From: a virus
Length of the DNA stretch: 30,502 nt
Virus record (IMG/VR): IMGVR_UViG_3300028571_000081
Span: 1 to 30,502 of that record
Reading direction: 5' to 3' (one strand)
Shown here piece after piece: positions 4,927 to 30,502 of the stretch. The notes below the pieces were generated by a model. That model searched no databases. It was not told the DNA's origin and saw only the letters and a list, made by a program, of their open reading frames with translations. Each line of letters opens with the position of its first letter. Position 1 is the first letter of the stretch. The translations under genes were made by a program, and so were the position numbers.

Positions 4927-7900
4927 CAAACCCTCCGGTCAGCGGCGCGGCTGAACAACCCACCGGGTCGCATGTTCCGCTCGGCGAACGCGTTCATCTT
5001 CATCTCCAGCGCCGCGTCGAGTTCGCGGCTCATGGTCTTCGCCAACGCCGCCTGCGCGTCGGCATCGCCGCCGGCCGCACCGCCCTCGATGTTGATGACC
5101 ACGCTCGGGGCGAACACCGCCTGTCCTCCGCCGCCCATGCCGCCGAGGGCGCCCGGGAGCCGCACGGCGTTGCCTCCTCCTGTCCCCAAAGCGGCTACCG
5201 GCGAGCCCCCGACAACGCCGCCGGTGTGGAAGCGTTGGGCACGGCTGAAGACCCCCATTTCCCGGGCCTGGAAGGCACCCCCAGCCGCCTGGGCGCGAAG
5301 GGCAGGGGACATAGCCCCACGAGCCTCTACGGCCGCCCTGCGCCCATCCAGGCCCAACGTGCCGTCCTTCAGGCGCTTGAGGGGGACCATCACCTCCTGG
5401 CCGCGCATCATCATCATGCGCACGCCGCGCTCGCCACGCTCGACGACGGTCGGGAGAACCGCTTCGTTCTTCAGGGCGATGATGGGGACCTCGTTTGGCT
5501 TCAGGCCGGGGACACCACGACGGTTGTCGTTGGCAGCACGGGCCTGCTTGGCGGCACCGACGATGCCCCCCGTGTGGTAACGGGCCGCGCCTGCGAACAC
5601 CGCGTTCGGCACCGTGCGTCGAGCGCCCGAGCCGTCCCCCGCCATGCCGCCGGTATGTCGGACAACAGCGGCACCGACGCCAATCGGCGGCACGGTGGTC
5701 GCGCCACCTCCACCGCCCGGAAGCAGTCCCATCACCCCCTGCACCGCGTTGAGTATCAACTGCGTGGAGATGATCTTCATCAGGTTGGCGATGACGGAGA
5801 GCGCGAAGTCCTTGAACGCGAACTTGCCCGTCTTAGCGAAGCCGACGATGGCGTCGCTCATCGTCGTCGCCATTTCGGTAACACCCTGCTTGGCGATCGA
5901 TAAGCTGTCCTGTGCATTGAGGATGAATTCGTCGATGCCTTCCTTCATGCCGGCCGCGAAAGTGCGTTTCTCGTTCAGAACCGCTTGCGCGGTGCGGACC
6001 TTGGTGACCAGTTCGTCGAGCTTGGCGAGGTCCTGCGGCGATACGATGCCGCCTGGACTGTTCTTCTGGAGGTCGTAATACGCTTCGGCGTAGAACTTCG
6101 CCCGGTCAAACTCCTGCCCCACCTTGCCGACCAATGCGGCCTGGATGGTCAGTTCGCGCACCGTGCTTTCGGCTTCTCCGGCGGCCTGATTGCGGGTGGT
6201 ATTCAGGGCCTTGGTCCGGGCGATCTCCTGCTCGGCCGGCAAGATACCATCACGGATGAGTGCGAGGTCCTTTTCGGTGTAGCCAAGGCCCGAGGCACGA
6301 AGCTCGTTGATCGTGACGATCGTCGCCTTGTGCGCCTCGTATTCCGTGCCGGTGAGGTAGGCGATGTTCTGCTCGGTCTGGGTTTCCTTTACGCTCTGTC
6401 GCACCTGCTCCAGTTTCTGACTGGTGAGGTCGATGCGCTCCTTCTCGAACCTGATCTTGGCCAGTTCGTTCGCCTGGGTGATGACGCCGGGGTCATCCAT
6501 CTTCGTGCCGGCGGCGCCCGCGATTTCGCGGCGCAGTTCGATGACCCGGCGCAGCGAAGCCCGCATGTCGATCGGGGCGGAAGCCAGTTCGCGGAAGGCG
6601 GCAAGCTCGGCCTTGGCTTCCATGAACAGCTTGGCGATGCCGTTGCCTGCCTTGGCGCTGCCTTCGGCCGCCAGGGCCGTCTGCAGGTCCTTCAGCATCG
6701 CGTCGACGTTCTTGCGCATCTCCTCGGCGCCGGCCGCGTCCAGCTTGGACAGGGCAGCGACCATCGCCAGGAGCGGGATAGCTGCCTGGAGATATTTGTT
6801 GCGCTGCTCGGCCGACAGGTTGGTCAGGCCCGAGGTCTCGCGTAGGATGCGCTCGCTGGTGATCGCATCCGCCGCCGCCTGCCCGGCCTTCTGCGTCGCC
6901 GTGGCGATGCCCTGCTTCAGAAGGAGGGTCTTCTGCAGGGTCGCGGCTTGGTCGATCGCCGGGTTGGCGGCGTCCGCGATCTGGGTTCGACCGGTTTCGT
7001 CGGGCAGGTAAAGGTTCTTTTCCTTGGCCTTGGCCTGCCGGAACTCCATGACCGCTTGCTCGATGGCGGCCACGTCGGACGACACGGCAGTCAGGCGAGC
7101 GGCACCCGTGGACGCATTGCGCACCTTGAACATCTCGGCGAAGGCCCGGTTGGACGCCTCGACCGCCTGGGTCTGCTCGATGATCTTCTGGGTCTCTTGT
7201 TCGGTCGCCAGGGCGAAGCCGGACGCGGACCCGCGCAGGCGGGCGAGCACGGCTTCGTAGCCGCCCATCGCCTCGACCGCCCGCAGGACCGCCGGGTTCT
7301 GGCTCTCGATCGCCGCGTTCAACGTCGCCTCGGCATCGGCCAACTGCTTGGCGTAGGCGATCGCGGGGGCCAGCCCTTCGGCCATCTGCATGAAGTTGCC
7401 GGCGGCGTCCGCGTTCACCTTGACGTTCGCCGTGTTCCGCAGCACGGCCAGCGTCTTCTCGTATGTCGACAGTATCCCGGCCGCCTCGGCGCCGTCCTTG
7501 TCGGATAGCGCCGACATCAGGGCGCGGATCGGCGCGGCCTGCTTCTCGAATTCGAGCAGCTTCTGTTTCGCCACCGCCGTCATGCCGACCGTGCGCAGTT
7601 CGAGCCCCGCCTGATTGACCGTCTCGGCCGACGCCTCATTGCCCTTTGCAACGAGTTGCACGATCCGGTCGCGGATCAACTGGATTTCCCGCAGGCGGCC
7701 GACGCGCTGGACGTCGGCGTCGTTCATGTCAGGCATGGCCTGCCCGGTGCGGTCAAGCGCCGGGTTCTGCATGTCGTCGAGCAGGAACTTGTTGTTCTTC
7801 GTCGCATACGACCGCGAGAACACCTCGACGTCCTTGGCGATGGCCGCCATGTCGGTCGACAGGAACCCGGCGCCGCCGGCCTGATCGCGGGCCGCGAACA

Positions 7901-11019: not shown

Positions 11020-11382
11020 TCAGGACTGTTTGCCCTTCATGGCTGCACGACGGCGTTCCCGCTCCTGATGCTCCTCCGTCGCCTCGTGTTTTGCCCGGTC
11101 GATGACCGAGAAATATTCGAGGAGGCGGTGAGGCTGCGAGAGAAGACCACCTTCTTCGGGCAGGATACCCTTATCGACGTGGGAGTAAAACCCGAAAATG
11201 CGGCCCCACTTCTCGCCCTCGTCGAGGAGGGGACGGCGAGGGCAGCGCGATGACGCCTCGCCGTCGAGTACCATCGGCTGAATGGGCGGCTCGGTGCATC
11301 CCCTGGTCCGTTTCTGCGTTGCCGAGCACTTTGCGCAATCCCACTCGGGCAACAGGATCAGGGCATAGACCAGCCGCCTTAG
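11020..11382 (-). CDS. Tail assembly chaperone, -1 frameshift extension (gpT-like part of G-T fusion)
   Basis: This frame has no convincing start of its own: the only nearby initiator is a TTG at 11352 without a Shine-Dalgarno sequence. It is continuous in the -1 frame with the slippery site at 11382-11388 of the preceding gene. Ribosomes slipping there would read CTA AGG CGG and continue for 120 codons, giving a 263-residue fusion. The extension holds a CxxC...C set (WDCAKCSATQKRTRGC), a feature seen in some T-domain proteins, and a highly charged C-terminus (EEHQERERRRAAMKGK). In lambda the G-T fusion loads tail-tube subunits onto the tape measure. The place, directly before the tape measure, is the classical one. 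Confidence 0.85.
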   Translation of the reverse strand, partial: LRRLVYALILLPEWDCAKCSATQKRTRGCTEPPIQPMVLDGEASSRCPRRPLLDEGEKWGRIFGFYSHVDKGILPEEGGLLSQPHRLLEYFSVIDRAKHEATEEHQERERRRAAMKGKQS

Positions 11383-11810
11383 TTTTTTCCCTCGACCTCT
11401 GCGATCTCGTTATCGCGGCGGATTTCCTCCGCCAGTTCCATGATGATCGCCTGCGGAATGCGCGACATCACCGCCGGGTCGACCACGTTGTAGCTCTTGC
11501 CGCCACGGTTCATCTTGATCGTCCGGTAGACGATCTCGTTGCCGCCGCCGTCGAGGAAGTTGGTCCAGCCGCGCAGGCCGAACTGCACCGTCTCGTAGGC
11601 CACTTCGTTGGCGTTGATGTTGGTCGAGACCATGCCATCGGGGTTGGCGGTGTCGACGTCCATGGTGGTCGAGCGATCCCGGATCATGCCGAAGATGCGG
11701 CTGTCCAGGGTGCCGATGCGCCACTTGGTGGCGGTGTCCTTGCCCCGATCCGAGTCATGGCGGGACTCGTAGGTCCGCTCGGCATCGAGGGTAATTCCGA
11801 CGATAGGCAT
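11379..11810 (-). CDS. Tail assembly chaperone (gpG-like, zero-frame product)
   Basis: The product is 143 residues, ATG at 11810 preceded by a strong AGGAGGT. The frame ends GAG GGA AAA AAC TAA, so the last sense codons form the slippery heptamer A-AAA-AAC. The sequence (MPIVGITLDAERTYESRHDSD, then WTNFLDGGGNEIVYRTIKM) is not closely recognised. Position between the tube genes and the tape measure, plus the frameshift signal, identifies the role. A perfect palindrome TTGCAACGGGTTGCAA lies in its leader just before the ribosome binding site. Confidence 0.87.
   Translation of the reverse strand: MPIVGITLDAERTYESRHDSDRGKDTATKWRIGTLDSRIFGMIRDRSTTMDVDTANPDGMVSTNINANEVAYETVQFGLRGWTNFLDGGGNEIVYRTIKMNRGGKSYNVVDPAVMSRIPQAIIMELAEEIRRDNEIAEVEGKN
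11382..11388 (-). promoter_or_regulatory. Programmed -1 ribosomal frameshift site A_AAA_AAC
   Basis: Read on the minus strand, the heptamer is in the correct phase (X_XXY_YYZ) at the very end of the chaperone gene, one codon before its TAA stop. A-AAA-AAC is among the known efficient -1 slip sites in bacteria. The -1 frame stays open for 120 codons beyond it. Confidence 0.87.
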
Positions 11811-11827
11811 TGTTGCTACCTCCTAGA

Positions 11828-11843
11828 TTGCAACGGGTTGCAA
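11828..11843. promoter_or_regulatory. Palindromic element TTGCAACGGGTTGCAA
   Basis: An intergenic copy of the dispersed palindrome (core TGCAAC-NN-GTTGCA, centre GG). It lies 3 bases after the TAG stop of the 62-residue gene and just before the AGGAGGT of the chaperone gene. Confidence 0.7.
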
Positions 11844-11846
11844 AAA

Positions 11847-12035
11847 CTACTTCTGGGCGACCTGTTTTTCGATGTAGGTGCCCGAAGTCGTATCGACCAC
11901 GCTCTGGGCCGCCGCACGGGTGAGGCGTGTCGCCACAATCCGCACGTTCGGCTCGCCAGGGCGGGGTAAATTGATGCGCTGCAGCACAAGGTAGACCTTG
12001 ATCTGCATCTTGCCCTTCTCGGGCTCACTGACCAT
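11847..12035 (-). CDS. Small conserved-position tail protein, unknown (62 aa)
   Basis: This small gene sits between the second tail-tube gene and the chaperone. The ATG at 12035 is chosen because GAGGTG lies six bases upstream. A GTG at 12044 and an ATG at 12008 (with AGAAGG upstream) are alternatives. The product is basic, with IKVYLVLQRINLPRPGEPNVRIVATRLTRAAAQSVV in two halves: a beta-strand-like stretch, then a helix. No known domain is recognised. Its place suggests a tail-tube accessory or assembly factor, which is inference only. Confidence 0.65.
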   Translation of the reverse strand: MVSEPEKGKMQIKVYLVLQRINLPRPGEPNVRIVATRLTRAAAQSVVDTTSGTYIEKQVAQK

Positions 12036-12045
12036 GCGCGTCACC

Positions 12046-13233
12046 TCACGGGAAGAAGAGGGTGATTTCGTCGTTCCCGCTGGTGCTGCGGCGAAGCCCG
12101 AGCGAGATGTCGTAGGCCCGGATGTTGTCGCGGTCGGTGTAGGAGATGCCGGTGACCTGGGCAGCGGGCAGCACGAAGTTCACCTCGTTGCCGAGCGTCG
12201 CCCCGAACTCCGCAGAGATCGAGCGGACGGTGGACGCCTCCCAGTCGGCGAAGAAACGCGCACTCAGCGCCGCGTCCACCTCGGGCGTGAAGTTGCCGGT
12301 CGGAGTGCGGCCCGAGATGTAGACCGAGTGCATCCCCAGCACCGAGTTCATGTCTTTACGCACCGCGATCTGGTTGCCCATGTCGATGCTCATCGACGCG
12401 GAATACAGGGTGGTGAACCCCGCCGTGTGGGGATAGGCGAGGTCGACGCTGCCGACGATCGGCGGGATGGTGCTCTGCAGCGTCTGCGCCGGAATGGCAG
12501 CGAGCGAGGGCGTATTGTAGGTGCCCGTGAAGGTCCATTCGATGCTGGCAATGCCGCCCGCCTCGGCGGTCAGCGTCCACGTGCCCATGGTGCCTGTCAG
12601 CGTGTGCAGGATGCCGTCCCAGTAGAGCCGCATGGTCAGCGTGTCCATGTTGTCGGTCTGGGGGGCGTAGAGCGCGCCTGCCATCAGCGTTGCCGTGCCG
12701 CCGCCACCCGTGGCACTGCCAACGCCGGGGTTCGAAACGGTGAACGTGGTGGATGTCGGGACCGTCAGCACCATGAAGGAGCCGTTGAAGCCGGCAGTGG
12801 CTCCTGCCACCGTGACCCACTGGCCCACCAGAAGCCCGTGTGCGCCGGATGTGGTGAAGGTGCTGGTCATGCCAGACCCGGCCCGCACGGCACCGGCCGG
12901 CGCTGCTGTGATGGTCGCCGGGGTGCCGATTGACTGCGCAGTGGCGGAGAACCCGCACCCGCGCAGCAGGACCGCCCAGTCGGGGGCGATAGCCGCCGTG
13001 CCCGACCCGCGAAGCTCGGTCTTGAAGGACAAGGTGGCGCGACGCGCCGTGTAGACGCTGGGGTGCGTGGACATGTCCCCACGCGTGAACGCGCGGATGA
13101 TCTCCTCCGCTTCGATGGACCACATCGGCTCGGATACGAGGATCGCGTCAGTGGCCCCCGACGTCGAGATGGCCGTTCCCGACGTCGTCTCGACCTTGGC
13201 GAGCAGGGCAGCTTTCTGGGTAAGGATCGGCAT
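12046..13233 (-). CDS. Major tail (tube) protein, copy 2
   Basis: The product is 395 residues with a strong GGAGGT before ATG at 13233. It is clearly paralogous to the upstream gene: the first 25 residues are identical apart from isolated changes, and RRATL.FKTE.RGSGTA, PDWAVLLRGCGF, YISGRTPTG.F.PEV and the C-terminal RDNIR.YD/NDE.TL.FP blocks are shared. A variable module at about residues 115-180 (SGAHGLLVGQWVTVAGA..FNGSFMV) interrupts the conserved frame. The position just after the tail-terminator gene and before the chaperones fits a tail-tube subunit. Whether both copies build the tube, or one forms an initiator or terminal ring, cannot be told from sequence. Confidence 0.8.
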   Translation of the reverse strand: MPILTQKAALLAKVETTSGTAISTSGATDAILVSEPMWSIEAEEIIRAFTRGDMSTHPSVYTARRATLSFKTELRGSGTAAIAPDWAVLLRGCGFSATAQSIGTPATITAAPAGAVRAGSGMTSTFTTSGAHGLLVGQWVTVAGATAGFNGSFMVLTVPTSTTFTVSNPGVGSATGGGGTATLMAGALYAPQTDNMDTLTMRLYWDGILHTLTGTMGTWTLTAEAGGIASIEWTFTGTYNTPSLAAIPAQTLQSTIPPIVGSVDLAYPHTAGFTTLYSASMSIDMGNQIAVRKDMNSVLGMHSVYISGRTPTGNFTPEVDAALSARFFADWEASTVRSISAEFGATLGNEVNFVLPAAQVTGISYTDRDNIRAYDISLGLRRSTSGNDEITLFFP

Positions 13234-25025: not shown

Positions 25026-25484
25026 CTAAGGCGTGCCTGCCGGGGGGGACAACAGGTCGCCAGTGTCGCTGGGACTCGACGGAACGGCAACGGGGGTGAT
25101 GCGCGACTGAACCACGCGGCCGGCTTCCTTCTGGGTTTCCTTCTCGGCGCGCAGGGCGGCTACCTCGGCACGAAAGAACGCCAAATTCTCGTTGTGCATG
25201 GCGATTTCTTGTTTCATCTCGGCCAAGGACGCGTCCGTCTGGGCGGCCTCGGCCTGTCGCGCCGCCTCACGCATCGAGGCGTCCTTCAGCATCGCGCCGA
25301 TCTGGCGGTTCAGCAGGTTCACCTGGGCTTCGAGTTGCCCAAGGAGGTCGAGGGCTTGGTTGCGCTGGCGACTGAGCGATCCGACCAACTCGGTCAGAAA
25401 CGCGACGGCTTCGAAACCCTGGCCGTTCGGCGCGGCGACCTGTTGGGCGGGTGCCGGAGTGGGCGGGTCGGGGGGCTGCTGCAT
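25026..25484 (-). CDS. Coiled-coil protein downstream of the radical SAM gene (152 aa)
   Basis: ATG at 25484 has CAGGAG upstream; longer readings start within the preceding gene's end. The first about 30 residues are Pro/Gln/Ala-rich (QQPPDPPTPAPAQQVAAPNGQ). Residues about 35-125 form a long heptad coiled coil (LLGQLEAQVNLLNRQIGAMLKD, ENLAFFRAEVAALRAEKETQKEAG), and the end is again Pro/Ser-rich. No cysteines are present. It could be a virion structural stalk or chaperone, or a substrate of the adjacent enzyme; neither is shown. The gene is the last before the terminator. Confidence 0.65.
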   Translation of the reverse strand: MQQPPDPPTPAPAQQVAAPNGQGFEAVAFLTELVGSLSRQRNQALDLLGQLEAQVNLLNRQIGAMLKDASMREAARQAEAAQTDASLAEMKQEIAMHNENLAFFRAEVAALRAEKETQKEAGRVVQSRITPVAVPSSPSDTGDLLSPPAGTP

Positions 25485-25527
25485 GTGCTGCTCCTGTTTG
25501 CGTGGCAAATATGTAGCCGAAAGATCG

Positions 25528-26874
25528 CTAGACTGCAAGAGCAGTTTGTTCGCCTTCGGACACTGTGTCGCCGAAAATCCAGCGGCGTTCCTGGCGCAAT
25601 GGCGCTGTGATGTAGTAGGGCACCGCCCCGGTCAAGAATTCGATCGCGGCGGCGAAGAAGACGATGTTGTCACTGAAGGCATTATCGCAAGCGGCGTCCC
25701 ACAACTTGCCTTCGAGGAACATGCATGAGCCCTGGCACAACTGCAGCACAGGGCAGGCCGCGCACTCCTTGCGCGTCGACCAATGCCGGGCGGTGTCCAG
25801 TTTCACTCCTGCGAGATCGGCCACTGTCCCGATCTTGTGCGACTTGCCATTGGGGGCCTTGCCGGCAGGAGACGTGTTCTGGCAGGTGATGACGTCGCCT
25901 CGCAAGGTCACCGCGATGTTGGTGGGTCGGTCCATCCCGCACTTCTGCCACACTGCCTCACCGGGGCGGCGGTAGGTGAGCGTGTTGACGAACGCACCGA
26001 TTTTCATGCTGGCGATCTCAAAGCGGTCCGCCCTGCCCTCCCTAAGCTCCCTGAAGGCTGTCTGACGGAAGGCGAGATGGTCAGCCCGCTTGAGGCTATA
26101 GGCCATCCCACCCTCGTCGTAGGGGTCTATGAAACCACCCTCGCCGAGCACCACTTCGTCGCCGAAGCGGGCCTGGAACCACGTCTGGATCGCCGCACGG
26201 GACGGATTAGTGCGATGGAGCATTGGGTTGATCGTGATGCGTCCGGACGGCTTCAGGCGGGCGTAGAGGTCGTAGATGCTCCGGGCCTTTTCTGCATCGT
26301 CGAACGGGTCCGGTCCACGCACTTTTTGTCCCGGCCCGTCATGGGACAGCCCAATCTGGAACCCCATCCGGTCGATCCAGGAATTCTTTTCCTCGTCGAG
26401 CAGAGAGCCGTTGGTGACCATCAGGAAAGAGGCGTTTGGCATGCGCTCCCGCAGCGCCTCGGCCAGCGGTTTGAGCGTCTTCCAGTAGACCAAGGGCTCG
26501 CCACCCCAGAACTCGATCTTGAGCCCCCTGCCCCGCCCATCTGTCCCTCGGGTGTCGAACCACGAGTCCAGGCCGGTCAGAAACGGCTCGATGTCGCGGT
26601 GCGCCGTCTCAGCCGCGTGGGGAACAAACCGCTGGCTGCAGTAGGTGCAGGAGTAGTTGCAGGACAGGCCGAGGCTGATCTTCAGCGTGGTCACCGTCTC
26701 TTTGCGGCCGGGCGCCTCGGGTGAAACGATCGTGGCCGCCGGCCAGTTGCGCTCTACAGGCGCCACGACTCTTTCGCCGGTCTCCCGCCACCGCAGATCG
26801 CTGGTCAGGTTGTTGTAAGTCAGACCGACCATCTCGCCGTTCTGGCGTCGCGCCAGGATCGTGAAAACCGCCAC
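25528..26874 (-). CDS. Radical SAM/SPASM enzyme (putative protein maturase)
   Basis: The product is 448 residues from GTG 26874, which follows the upstream stop after 1 base; a GTG 11 codons earlier is the other option. The radical SAM cluster motif is C72-NYS-C76-TY-C79, followed by the GGEP-type motif FWGGEPLVYW and the SAM-binding strand FLMVTNG. The C-terminal third is a SPASM domain: Cys312, then G-x4-Cys331 (RGDVITC), then C371-x2-C374-x5-C380-x3-C384-x11-C396, enough to bind two auxiliary Fe-S clusters. SPASM enzymes modify peptides or proteins (sulfatase activation, thioether or C-C crosslinks). All cluster cysteines are present, so it should be active. Its position among tail-fibre genes suggests a virion protein as substrate, which is inference. 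Confidence 0.93.
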   Translation of the reverse strand: MAVFTILARRQNGEMVGLTYNNLTSDLRWRETGERVVAPVERNWPAATIVSPEAPGRKETVTTLKISLGLSCNYSCTYCSQRFVPHAAETAHRDIEPFLTGLDSWFDTRGTDGRGRGLKIEFWGGEPLVYWKTLKPLAEALRERMPNASFLMVTNGSLLDEEKNSWIDRMGFQIGLSHDGPGQKVRGPDPFDDAEKARSIYDLYARLKPSGRITINPMLHRTNPSRAAIQTWFQARFGDEVVLGEGGFIDPYDEGGMAYSLKRADHLAFRQTAFRELREGRADRFEIASMKIGAFVNTLTYRRPGEAVWQKCGMDRPTNIAVTLRGDVITCQNTSPAGKAPNGKSHKIGTVADLAGVKLDTARHWSTRKECAACPVLQLCQGSCMFLEGKLWDAACDNAFSDNIVFFAAAIEFLTGAVPYYITAPLRQERRWIFGDTVSEGEQTALAV

Positions 26875-26875
26875 G

Positions 26876-27745
26876 TCAGTCCACCCGGATGCTGATCTCG
26901 TCCGCACCTGGGTAATAGCGCCAGCCTGCCTTCACCCGCAGTTCTTCGCCCGGCAGCAGGCCCATCGCCGAGACGCGGAACGTGCCCTGCCCTTCCTTCA
27001 GCCTCGCCCGTGTGTGCGGCAGGTAGCCGGAGACGGCTTCGAGGTAGATCGTTGAATTGCAACGCGTGTCAATCTGCTGGGTGATATTGTCGAAGACCCG
27101 CATGGTGACCTCCGTCGATCCGTCCGCCGCGATTTCGGTCGGCCCAGACAGACTCAGGATCGGCCACCGGTAGATTTCGCTCGCGATCCCCTTCTCTCGT
27201 AGCCCCGCCTTGAATGGGTGGTGCACTCCCTGCGCGCGATTGCCGGAGACCACGATTGTCGCGTCGGCGAACGGGCTGTCGGCGTAGGGCATGCAGACGA
27301 TCAGAGGGGTGTTGACCCTGTCGCGGCGGTAGATAAGGCCGGCGGCCTCTCGTCCGGGGAGAGACTGCAGCGTGCGGTTGAACGGAGTGCGCAGGGCGCC
27401 ACTGGGTTCCGCCGGGAACATCCACATGCCACGGTCAGACATTTCGGCGCCATGACGGCGGGGGTCCGGCTCCCACGCCAGAGCGGAGACAACCTTGATG
27501 CGCCCATGCTCCGCGCCGGGGTATACCGACTTCGCGTCGTAAGACAGGCCACCGAAGATGATCATGTCCCCTCCCAGGTAATCGCCTACCCACGAGAGAA
27601 GCGCGCTGGTTTCGCTCTCACTGGCTTCTCGCAGCGCGTCGCTCGCCGTCACTGGCGCGGTGGTGCGCAAGCTGATCCTGTTTTCGTCCAGGGCGACGAT
27701 GACCCCGTGCGACAGGGCCGTGTTGTGTAGCTCGAAGGTGCGCAT
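26876..27745 (-). CDS. Putative tail/adhesin protein with Ig-like C-terminus (289 aa)
   Basis: ATG at 27745 has AGGAG upstream. Residues 1-190 are unrecognised, with strand-rich sequence (FELHNTALSHGVIVALDENRISLRTT, MIIFGGLSYDAKSVYPG). Residues about 195-289 resemble a bacterial Ig-like domain: ILSLSGPTEIAADGSTEVTMRVFD, IDTRCNSTIYLEAVSGYLP, LKEGQGTFRVSAMGLLPGEELRVKA. The stop sits 1 base before the radical SAM start, so the two are tightly coupled and the pair may function together. It contains Cys in NTPLIVCMPY and DTRCNS. It may be the enzyme's substrate or partner; no direct proof. Confidence 0.55.
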   Translation of the reverse strand: MRTFELHNTALSHGVIVALDENRISLRTTAPVTASDALREASESETSALLSWVGDYLGGDMIIFGGLSYDAKSVYPGAEHGRIKVVSALAWEPDPRRHGAEMSDRGMWMFPAEPSGALRTPFNRTLQSLPGREAAGLIYRRDRVNTPLIVCMPYADSPFADATIVVSGNRAQGVHHPFKAGLREKGIASEIYRWPILSLSGPTEIAADGSTEVTMRVFDNITQQIDTRCNSTIYLEAVSGYLPHTRARLKEGQGTFRVSAMGLLPGEELRVKAGWRYYPGADEISIRVD

Positions 27746-27754
27746 GAAGTGCTC

Positions 27755-28549
27755 CTAGCCAGAAATGATCGACTGGTAGAACGGCGTAGCAAGCGGAGGC
27801 CCGCCGTTGTGACCAATGCCGGGCATTGTTTCTATCCACCACCACTTGTCCACCTCGGCCTCGGCCCATTCGGCGGCCGACAGTTCGCGGTCGAAGATCA
27901 AGAGGTATTGGATCGAGGCATCGCCGGTCTTGTCCCAGCTTTCGTTGCTGCCGGTGTTTGGGTGCAAGTGGCCAACTGTAAACGGCGTGCCGTTGGTCGC
28001 GGAAAGACCCGTGCTAGCATTGCTGGCGACCGCGCGCCCCTTGACCCAAGCGGTCTGCCCGGACGCTCCCCAGGAAGTGCCCATCGTTAGGAACTCGCCG
28101 GGGTCCCATAGCCCTACATTGGAAAAAATGACGCGCTTATCGCCGCCGCTGATTATTCCAAAATAGCAATTTCCGTCGTTATACTTCAGAACTTCAACGC
28201 CGGGACCGGACGGATAGTTGTTGGCCTGCGAAAACAAATAGTGCGACGTCGCCGAATTGCTTGCGAAGCTGGGAGTTGCCGCACCGATGATGGTCCCGGC
28301 AGTCGTCGGAACGCTCCAAGTGACCCCAGAGGCGGCCTGCCAATACCCGTTCGTCCCGCCCAGCCCCCAGCCGGCTTTGCTAGTGACGCGATCGCCGCCA
28401 TTGCCGAACGAGCCCGGCACCACGCCGGTATCGCGGTCCCTGATCCAGGGCTCCGCCTCGGGGTTGGCGAAATCCAACGCGAACACCAGCCCCCGCGACT
28501 TGGCGATCTCATTGGGCCGGACGCGACCGCCGGGACGCATCACGCCCAT
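27755..28549 (-). CDS. LamG/concanavalin-like tail protein (264 aa)
   Basis: ATG at 28549 follows the previous stop by 3 bases (TAGCCCATG), with AGGGGG upstream. The middle and C-terminal parts are a LamG-like beta sandwich: GLVFALDFANPEAEPWIRD at the start, then a lectin-type ending DASIQYLLIFDRELSAAEWAEAEVDKWWW. That ending is the characteristic LamG finish (L.I.DR.LS..E). It probably binds surface carbohydrate. After the domain comes METMPGIGHNGGPPLATPF-like sequence; the short motif IGHNGGPPL recurs, as I recall, in many alphaproteobacterial and phage proteins, usually near N-termini. Here it lies near the C-terminus, which is unusual. Confidence 0.75.
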   Translation of the reverse strand: MGVMRPGGRVRPNEIAKSRGLVFALDFANPEAEPWIRDRDTGVVPGSFGNGGDRVTSKAGWGLGGTNGYWQAASGVTWSVPTTAGTIIGAATPSFASNSATSHYLFSQANNYPSGPGVEVLKYNDGNCYFGIISGGDKRVIFSNVGLWDPGEFLTMGTSWGASGQTAWVKGRAVASNASTGLSATNGTPFTVGHLHPNTGSNESWDKTGDASIQYLLIFDRELSAAEWAEAEVDKWWWIETMPGIGHNGGPPLATPFYQSIISG

Positions 28550-30177: not shown

Positions 30178-30502
30178 TTAGAAGGTGCCGCCATCGACCG
30201 TATTGCCATCGAACGTCGTCAGGTTGGTGATGGACCCTCCGGTGATCGCCACGTTGCTGGCTGCCTGCGTCGCGATCGTGCCCAGCCCAAGCGTGGTGCG
30301 CCCTGCCGAGGCGTCCGCGTCATCCACCAGGGACCGGCCAAAGGCGGTGAAGTCTGCCACGCTGGCCGTGCCGGAACCGGTGAAGTAGGGGATTTTGTCG
30401 GCCGCCGATGCCAGCCCGGCGATCGCGGCCAGTTCGGCGTCGTATGCCTGCACGTTGGTGCCGATGACCAGCCCGAGATTGACCCGCGCCCCTGCCTGAT
30501 CG
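30178..30502 (-). CDS. Tail fibre repeat protein (5' end outside window)
   Basis: The C-terminal 107 residues are visible; the frame is open to the right edge. It shows fibre repeats: [23 protein letters not shown] and [26 protein letters not shown] are units of the widespread R-x-x-LGLG-x-x / QAYDA-L tail-fibre repeat. It ends [15 protein letters not shown] followed by TAA. These repeats build the fibre shaft; receptor domains would be elsewhere. Confidence 0.82.

Follow-up and report, generated by a model that had tools for sequence, protein, structure and literature searches.

Fibres determine which bacteria a phage infects and are usually regarded as composed of the twenty standard amino acids. 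The closest named relatives of the radical SAM/SPASM enzyme analyzed here are encoded by two Achromobacter phages, JWF (gp30) and 2-1, whose proteins belong to the same family (PHROG 1802), share 45-47% identity with it and are located in a fibre block preceding the lysis genes. The fibre of these phages carries the sequence NCNCDCNCSC before a Hint domain. Their enzyme is annotated simply as a radical SAM protein and the records propose no role for it. JWF also has a relative in Xylophilus phage Lumi (PMC9959647). Pelagimyophages have radical SAM cassettes and fibres in one variable region, their host recognition cluster, and the passages describing this cluster propose neither a link to cysteine tails nor a maturation role (PMC7029224). 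A description of this enzyme paired with a fibre ending in Asn-Cys (NC) units was not found in the open-access literature.

Outside phages, the nearest described systems are CteB and the SPASM maturases of ranthipeptides and sactipeptides (SCIFF, PapB, TigE), with which the phage enzyme shares a radical SAM core, SPASM clusters and, presumably, a Cys-rich ribosomal substrate. These systems operate on short leader-core peptides, whereas the presumed substrate here is a tail forming part of a large virion protein; in addition, the phage enzyme reaches no NCBIfam equivalog cut-off, and an RRE was not recognised in it or its phage relatives. The anaerobic sulfatase maturases (anSME) are similar in their SPASM fold and in acting on whole proteins but differ in an active-site residue and in their substrate motif, as discussed below.

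The window, i.e. the whole stretch of DNA analyzed, is a virus record of 30,502 bases corresponding to a linear fragment (Table 1). On the minus strand, transcription would proceed from the end of a tail fibre through genes for proteins of 176, 196, 170 and 264 aa to the 289-aa protein, the radical SAM enzyme, the coiled-coil protein and a small protein, followed by endolysin, portal, capsid, connectors and tape measure. The enzyme lies within a block of siphovirus-type tail, head and lysis genes. The portals closest to that of the window belong to Rhizobium phages of 108-110 kb, so the window perhaps represents one third of the genome. Only 3.6 kb separate the enzyme from the fragment edge at 30502; exact matching found no contig overlapping the window ends, and a contig 100% identical to the window covers the capsid and portal region only. 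The enzyme was present in 0/17 records of portal relatives of the window phage, many of these records being short, and this absence fits a mobile cassette.

Table 1. Features of the radical SAM locus and its surroundings in the window
Feature	Position	Strand	Remarks
Coiled-coil protein downstream of the enzyme	25026..25538	-	170-aa ORF; 152 aa from first ATG 25484
Radical SAM/SPASM enzyme, PHROG 1802 family	25528..26874	-	448 aa from GTG 26874; intact ORF
SPASM region, seven invariant Cys	25687..25941	-	CX13GX4C - CX2CX5CX3C - C; alignment of relatives; TIGR04085
CxxxCxxC radical SAM motif, C83/C87/C90 (459-aa ORF numbering)	26638..26661	-	Invariant in 29 relatives
289-aa protein with C-terminal Ig-like domain	26876..27745	-	Family in 76/162 radical SAM loci, usually directly after the NC-tail gene
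Ig-like domain of the 289-aa protein, most conserved part	26879..27163	-	Predicted fold, pLDDT above 90
264-aa protein in the slot of the relatives' NC-tailed fibre	27755..28549	-	Terminates in GIGHNGGPPLATPFYQSIISG without a Cys tail; uncertain role
C-terminal part of tail fibre, cut by window edge	30178..30501	-	Resembles fibre repeats of relatives

The listed ORF of the enzyme (459 aa) begins at GTG 26907. Since its relatives begin with 'MAxFxI', the real start is the GTG at 26874-26872, one base past the TGA (26878-26876) of the 289-aa gene. The protein matches the PHROG 1802 profile over residues 69-433 (E 2.6e-60) and SPASM TIGR04085 above its cut-off, while the Pfam Radical_SAM match (3.6e-6) falls just below the Pfam threshold; the CxxxCxxC motif and the core fold nevertheless place it in the radical SAM superfamily. 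In the numbering of the 459-aa ORF, the SPASM cysteines are arranged as C323-x13-G337-x4-C342 / C382-x2-C385-x5-C391-x3-C395 / C407, in agreement with the subfamily motif CX9-15GX4C - CX2CX5CX3C - C, and all ten cysteines of the two regions are invariant and canonically spaced among 29 relatives. The AlphaFold model has a mean pLDDT of 90, the first 55 residues being predicted mainly as strands, and the top Foldseek hits among peptide and protein maturases are CteB, anSMEcpe, ChlB, TigE, SkfB and SuiB. The window proteins scanned gave no match to a PqqD domain. The original prediction had described a complete radical SAM/SPASM enzyme embedded in a tail-fibre block, one base after an Ig-like protein and ahead of a coiled-coil protein, with no typical short precursor; this description holds, and neither strand of the window encodes a short leader-core precursor like those of ranthipeptide and sactipeptide systems.

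The 289-aa Ig-like family was recovered solely through the loci of the enzyme, where it directly follows the NC-tail gene in 61/70 testable cases. It has no conserved Cys-rich segment, and a structure search returned generic Ig folds only. Neither an exact peptide scan nor tblastn detected relatives of the 289- and 264-aa proteins in phages. Three side observations concern these neighbours. The C-terminal GIGHNGGPPL of the 264-aa protein (window 27755-27820) also occurs in Roseobacter phage terminases; it seems to be a general motif and was rejected as an enzyme-specific one. In L150 (8946-9866), an N-terminus resembling a tail tube protein is joined to the Ig-like domain, perhaps through recombination or misassembly. 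The sequence LEAQVNLLNRQ of the window coiled-coil protein resembles LEAQVDLLTTW in the 240-aa protein preceding the enzyme in JWF and 2-1, to which it is possibly related; unlike the 289-aa protein of the window, this 240-aa neighbour did not group with the Ig-like family in the search applied.

Relatives of the enzyme were sampled in IMG/VR (80 of 136) and in species genomes (79 of 92). Most are apparently carried by prophages of Limnohabitans, Polynucleobacter, Rhodobacterales, Rhodospirillales and others. Their typical cassette runs from a fibre or other receptor-binding protein, whose C-terminus is an (Asn/Asp/Ala-Cys)n tail, through the Ig-like protein and, in many cases, 2OG-Fe(II) oxygenases to the enzyme; among these partners, the window holds only the enzyme and the Ig-like protein. 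The usual upstream neighbour is a fibre protein whose tail is made up of NC, DC and AC units. An N-C-rich cluster lies on the enzyme strand in 119/142 non-redundant loci, against 14/142 in the antisense control, and under a strict definition of C-terminal NC tails the same 142 loci yielded 92 sense and 3 antisense cases. A first, looser tail criterion had been dropped in favour of these stricter ones as it also matched 95/142 antisense sequences. Loci devoid of an NC cluster are mostly truncated contigs or belong to Bacteriovoracales. The window enzyme nests in the NC-tail clade, with a sister group of 22 members (17 with a tail, 4 truncated and 1 without). Campylobacter phage radical SAM genes, 27-28% identical over the core, were set aside as their annotation contains no adjoining fibre or Cys-tail gene.

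The residue preceding cysteine in 112 tails is Asn (62%), Ala (18%) or Asp (15%). Mixed synonymous codons were found in 36/40 tails, so selection appears to act on the protein and not to maintain a DNA repeat. Among the tail-bearing proteins are Peptidase_S74 proteins as well as collagen, Mtd_N and Shufflon_N proteins, the last three being known receptor-binding or pilus-tip types. The tail forms either the last segment of the protein or a run directly preceding the start of a Hint or Peptidase_S74 domain, e.g. CNCDCNCDCFWSDDTLK. The run directly before a Hint start was observed in eight loci (CFPAGT, or CFPAAT in L157), with a Hint domain detected by Pfam in L002 and more weakly in L031; the run before a Peptidase_S74 start was observed in L033, L060, L062, L063 and L068, with Pfam confirmation for L033 and L060. 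Both families are known for self-cleavage, so different proteins may come to carry the tail at a new C-terminus. Additional viral contigs have their NC region in front of a domain that Pfam does not recognise.

The association was also examined in the reverse direction. IMG/VR was scanned for DNA coding for CNCNCNC, blind to the enzyme, and 80 stretches were taken from the matches listed; a tail was considered real when the motif lay close to the C-terminal end of an ORF no shorter than 60 aa, and whole records were searched for the enzyme. Among the matches listed, 37/80 stretches contain a real C-terminal tail, and the enzyme is present in 32/37 of these records versus 2/43 of the others; as related loci are not independent, the Fisher p of 9e-15 overstates certainty and should be read as strong, not literal. 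In both enzyme-bearing records of the second group, the motif is situated deeper inside real ORFs. The five tail records lacking the enzyme among these matches comprise L229, a 5.5-kb contig, L239, whose motif is at the contig edge, and L186, L192 and L201, which encode other radical SAM proteins. The radical SAM proteins of these last three NC-tail records are several in number and of a different family, possibly reflecting a convergent pairing.

Genes for further enzymes accompany the cassette. Among 63 non-redundant viral loci, 2OG-Fe(II) oxygenases are found in 35, tryptophan halogenase in 11, B12-type radical SAM proteins in 10 and a desaturase in 4, while 11 contain a cluster in which the member tested matches Asp/Asn hydroxylase. 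The fibre blocks of L034 (7816-14124) and L061 hold, besides the SPASM enzyme, 2OG-Fe(II) oxygenases, a tryptophan halogenase (Pfam 7.8e-95) and another radical SAM protein whose B12-binding match is weak. In L145 (Bradyrhizobium; 7324-7557 and 11259-12745), proteins of 76-78 residues with NC tails are encoded along with two Asp/Asn-hydroxylase-like genes downstream of the enzyme. The halogenase of isolated Pelagibacter phages and cyanophages is located among oxygenases, with no radical SAM gene annotated beside it.

The phage relatives carry their Cys core on fibre proteins and not on a short precursor; a short peptide is found in L153 only. This locus (11294-11911, 62-aa peptide ending GACACACGGPCY) belongs to the Bacteriovoracales, the only branch with a PqqD-type protein beside the enzyme (PF05402 above cut-off in L156 and just under it in L153). 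L156 (11326-13218) has an apparent ABC transporter in addition. The Bacteriovoracales loci resemble a RiPP cluster, which supports a maturase role for the enzyme family.

Taken together, the genomic comparisons argue that the enzyme is probably a virion-protein maturase acting on the C-terminal NC tail of a fibre or other receptor-binding protein encoded in its own operon. With the help of SAM and its Fe-S clusters, the enzyme would most likely abstract hydrogen from residues of the (Asn/Asp/Ala)-Cys tail and join the Cys sulphur to carbon, probably forming thioether-type crosslinks; the product would be a rigid modified tip, exposed either directly or after Hint or S74 self-cleavage. A thioether is preferred in view of the Cys-rich tails and of the nearest fold, CteB, being a thioether former. 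The analysis establishes the gene, its motifs, a fold prediction and the genomic association in both directions; we infer the tail to be the substrate, the thioether to be the product and the tip to serve adsorption or stability. This conclusion can be held with good confidence for the family and with somewhat less, on balance in its favour, for the window phage, because the fragment contains no NC tail and an unusual 264-aa protein precedes the Ig-like gene. No Cys-rich or NC tail was found anywhere in this truncated window, and none is present in the gene directly before the Ig-like gene, where 61/70 relatives have one, which counts against the proposal for this phage. Its substrate must be encoded past the window end at 30502, unless it is the atypical 264-aa protein. 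The original suggestion that a SPASM maturase modifies a virion protein of the tail block is strongly supported at the level of the family by the two-way association with N-C-tailed fibres; the substrates then named are not supported. The 289-aa protein is a conserved neighbour without a conserved Cys-rich segment, the 264-aa protein occupies the usual substrate slot without a tail, and no evidence points to the 152-aa protein. Homologues are not confined to sites outside tail blocks next to a precursor, only the Bacteriovoracales branch resembling a cellular peptide cluster.

Other explanations deserve consideration. In the window phage, the enzyme could modify the Cys-poor tail of the 264-aa protein instead, which stands directly before the Ig-like gene where the substrate is normally encoded, and SPASM enzymes with non-Cys acceptors exist; the motif shared with terminases is not specific to the enzyme, however, and the protein is without detected relatives, making this alternative unlikely. 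The presence of anSMEcpe among the nearest structures raises the idea that tail cysteines are converted to formylglycine, as by anaerobic sulfatase maturases, yielding reactive aldehydes for covalent attachment. This chemistry is disfavoured because the position of Asp277, the catalytic Asp of anSME, directly follows a SPASM Cys and is an invariant Gln in the phage enzyme (Cys-Gln-Asn); moreover, the NC tails lack the CxPxR motif, and we regard this conversion as quite improbable.

The tail might also be nothing but a metal-binding or disulphide tip, metal binding being possible for Cys-rich tips, while the enzyme would merely travel with fibre genes and have a different function, for example in host takeover or defence. 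Viperin models do match the radical SAM core weakly, but these matches are partial and confined to the core, and viperin has no SPASM domain, whereas the enzyme family keeps a complete one, which places the window enzyme outside the viperins. The two-way association across distant phages and the RiPP-like cellular branch also speak against such a scenario, which is improbable. Finally, a bacterial maturase gene captured by chance, or joined to fibre genes by assembly, could be imagined for a 30.5-kb fragment; JWF and 2-1, both isolated phages, and numerous independent contigs show the same arrangement, which contradicts this reading, and we consider it scarcely credible.

Maturation of the NC-tailed fibre thus remains the preferred reading, and a broader one can be put forward tentatively: a widespread phage system might turn receptor-binding proteins into RiPP-like hybrids, in which a C-terminal Cys-Asn core would be crosslinked by a radical SAM enzyme, in some phages tailored further by 2OG-Fe(II) oxygenases, Asp/Asn hydroxylases, a desaturase, B12-type radical SAM proteins or tryptophan halogenase, and exposed by Hint or S74 self-cleavage as a chemically modified adhesive tip. 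The sequence pairing makes the hypothesis directly testable in isolated phages. If it is true, candidate natural substrates would become available for the radical SAM enzymes, oxygenases and halogenases that phages encode. The genomic evidence suggests that many phages may chemically remodel the fibre tip with which they grab their host; if fibre tips are indeed remodelled by radical chemistry, host recognition would have a layer missed by sequence-based prediction.
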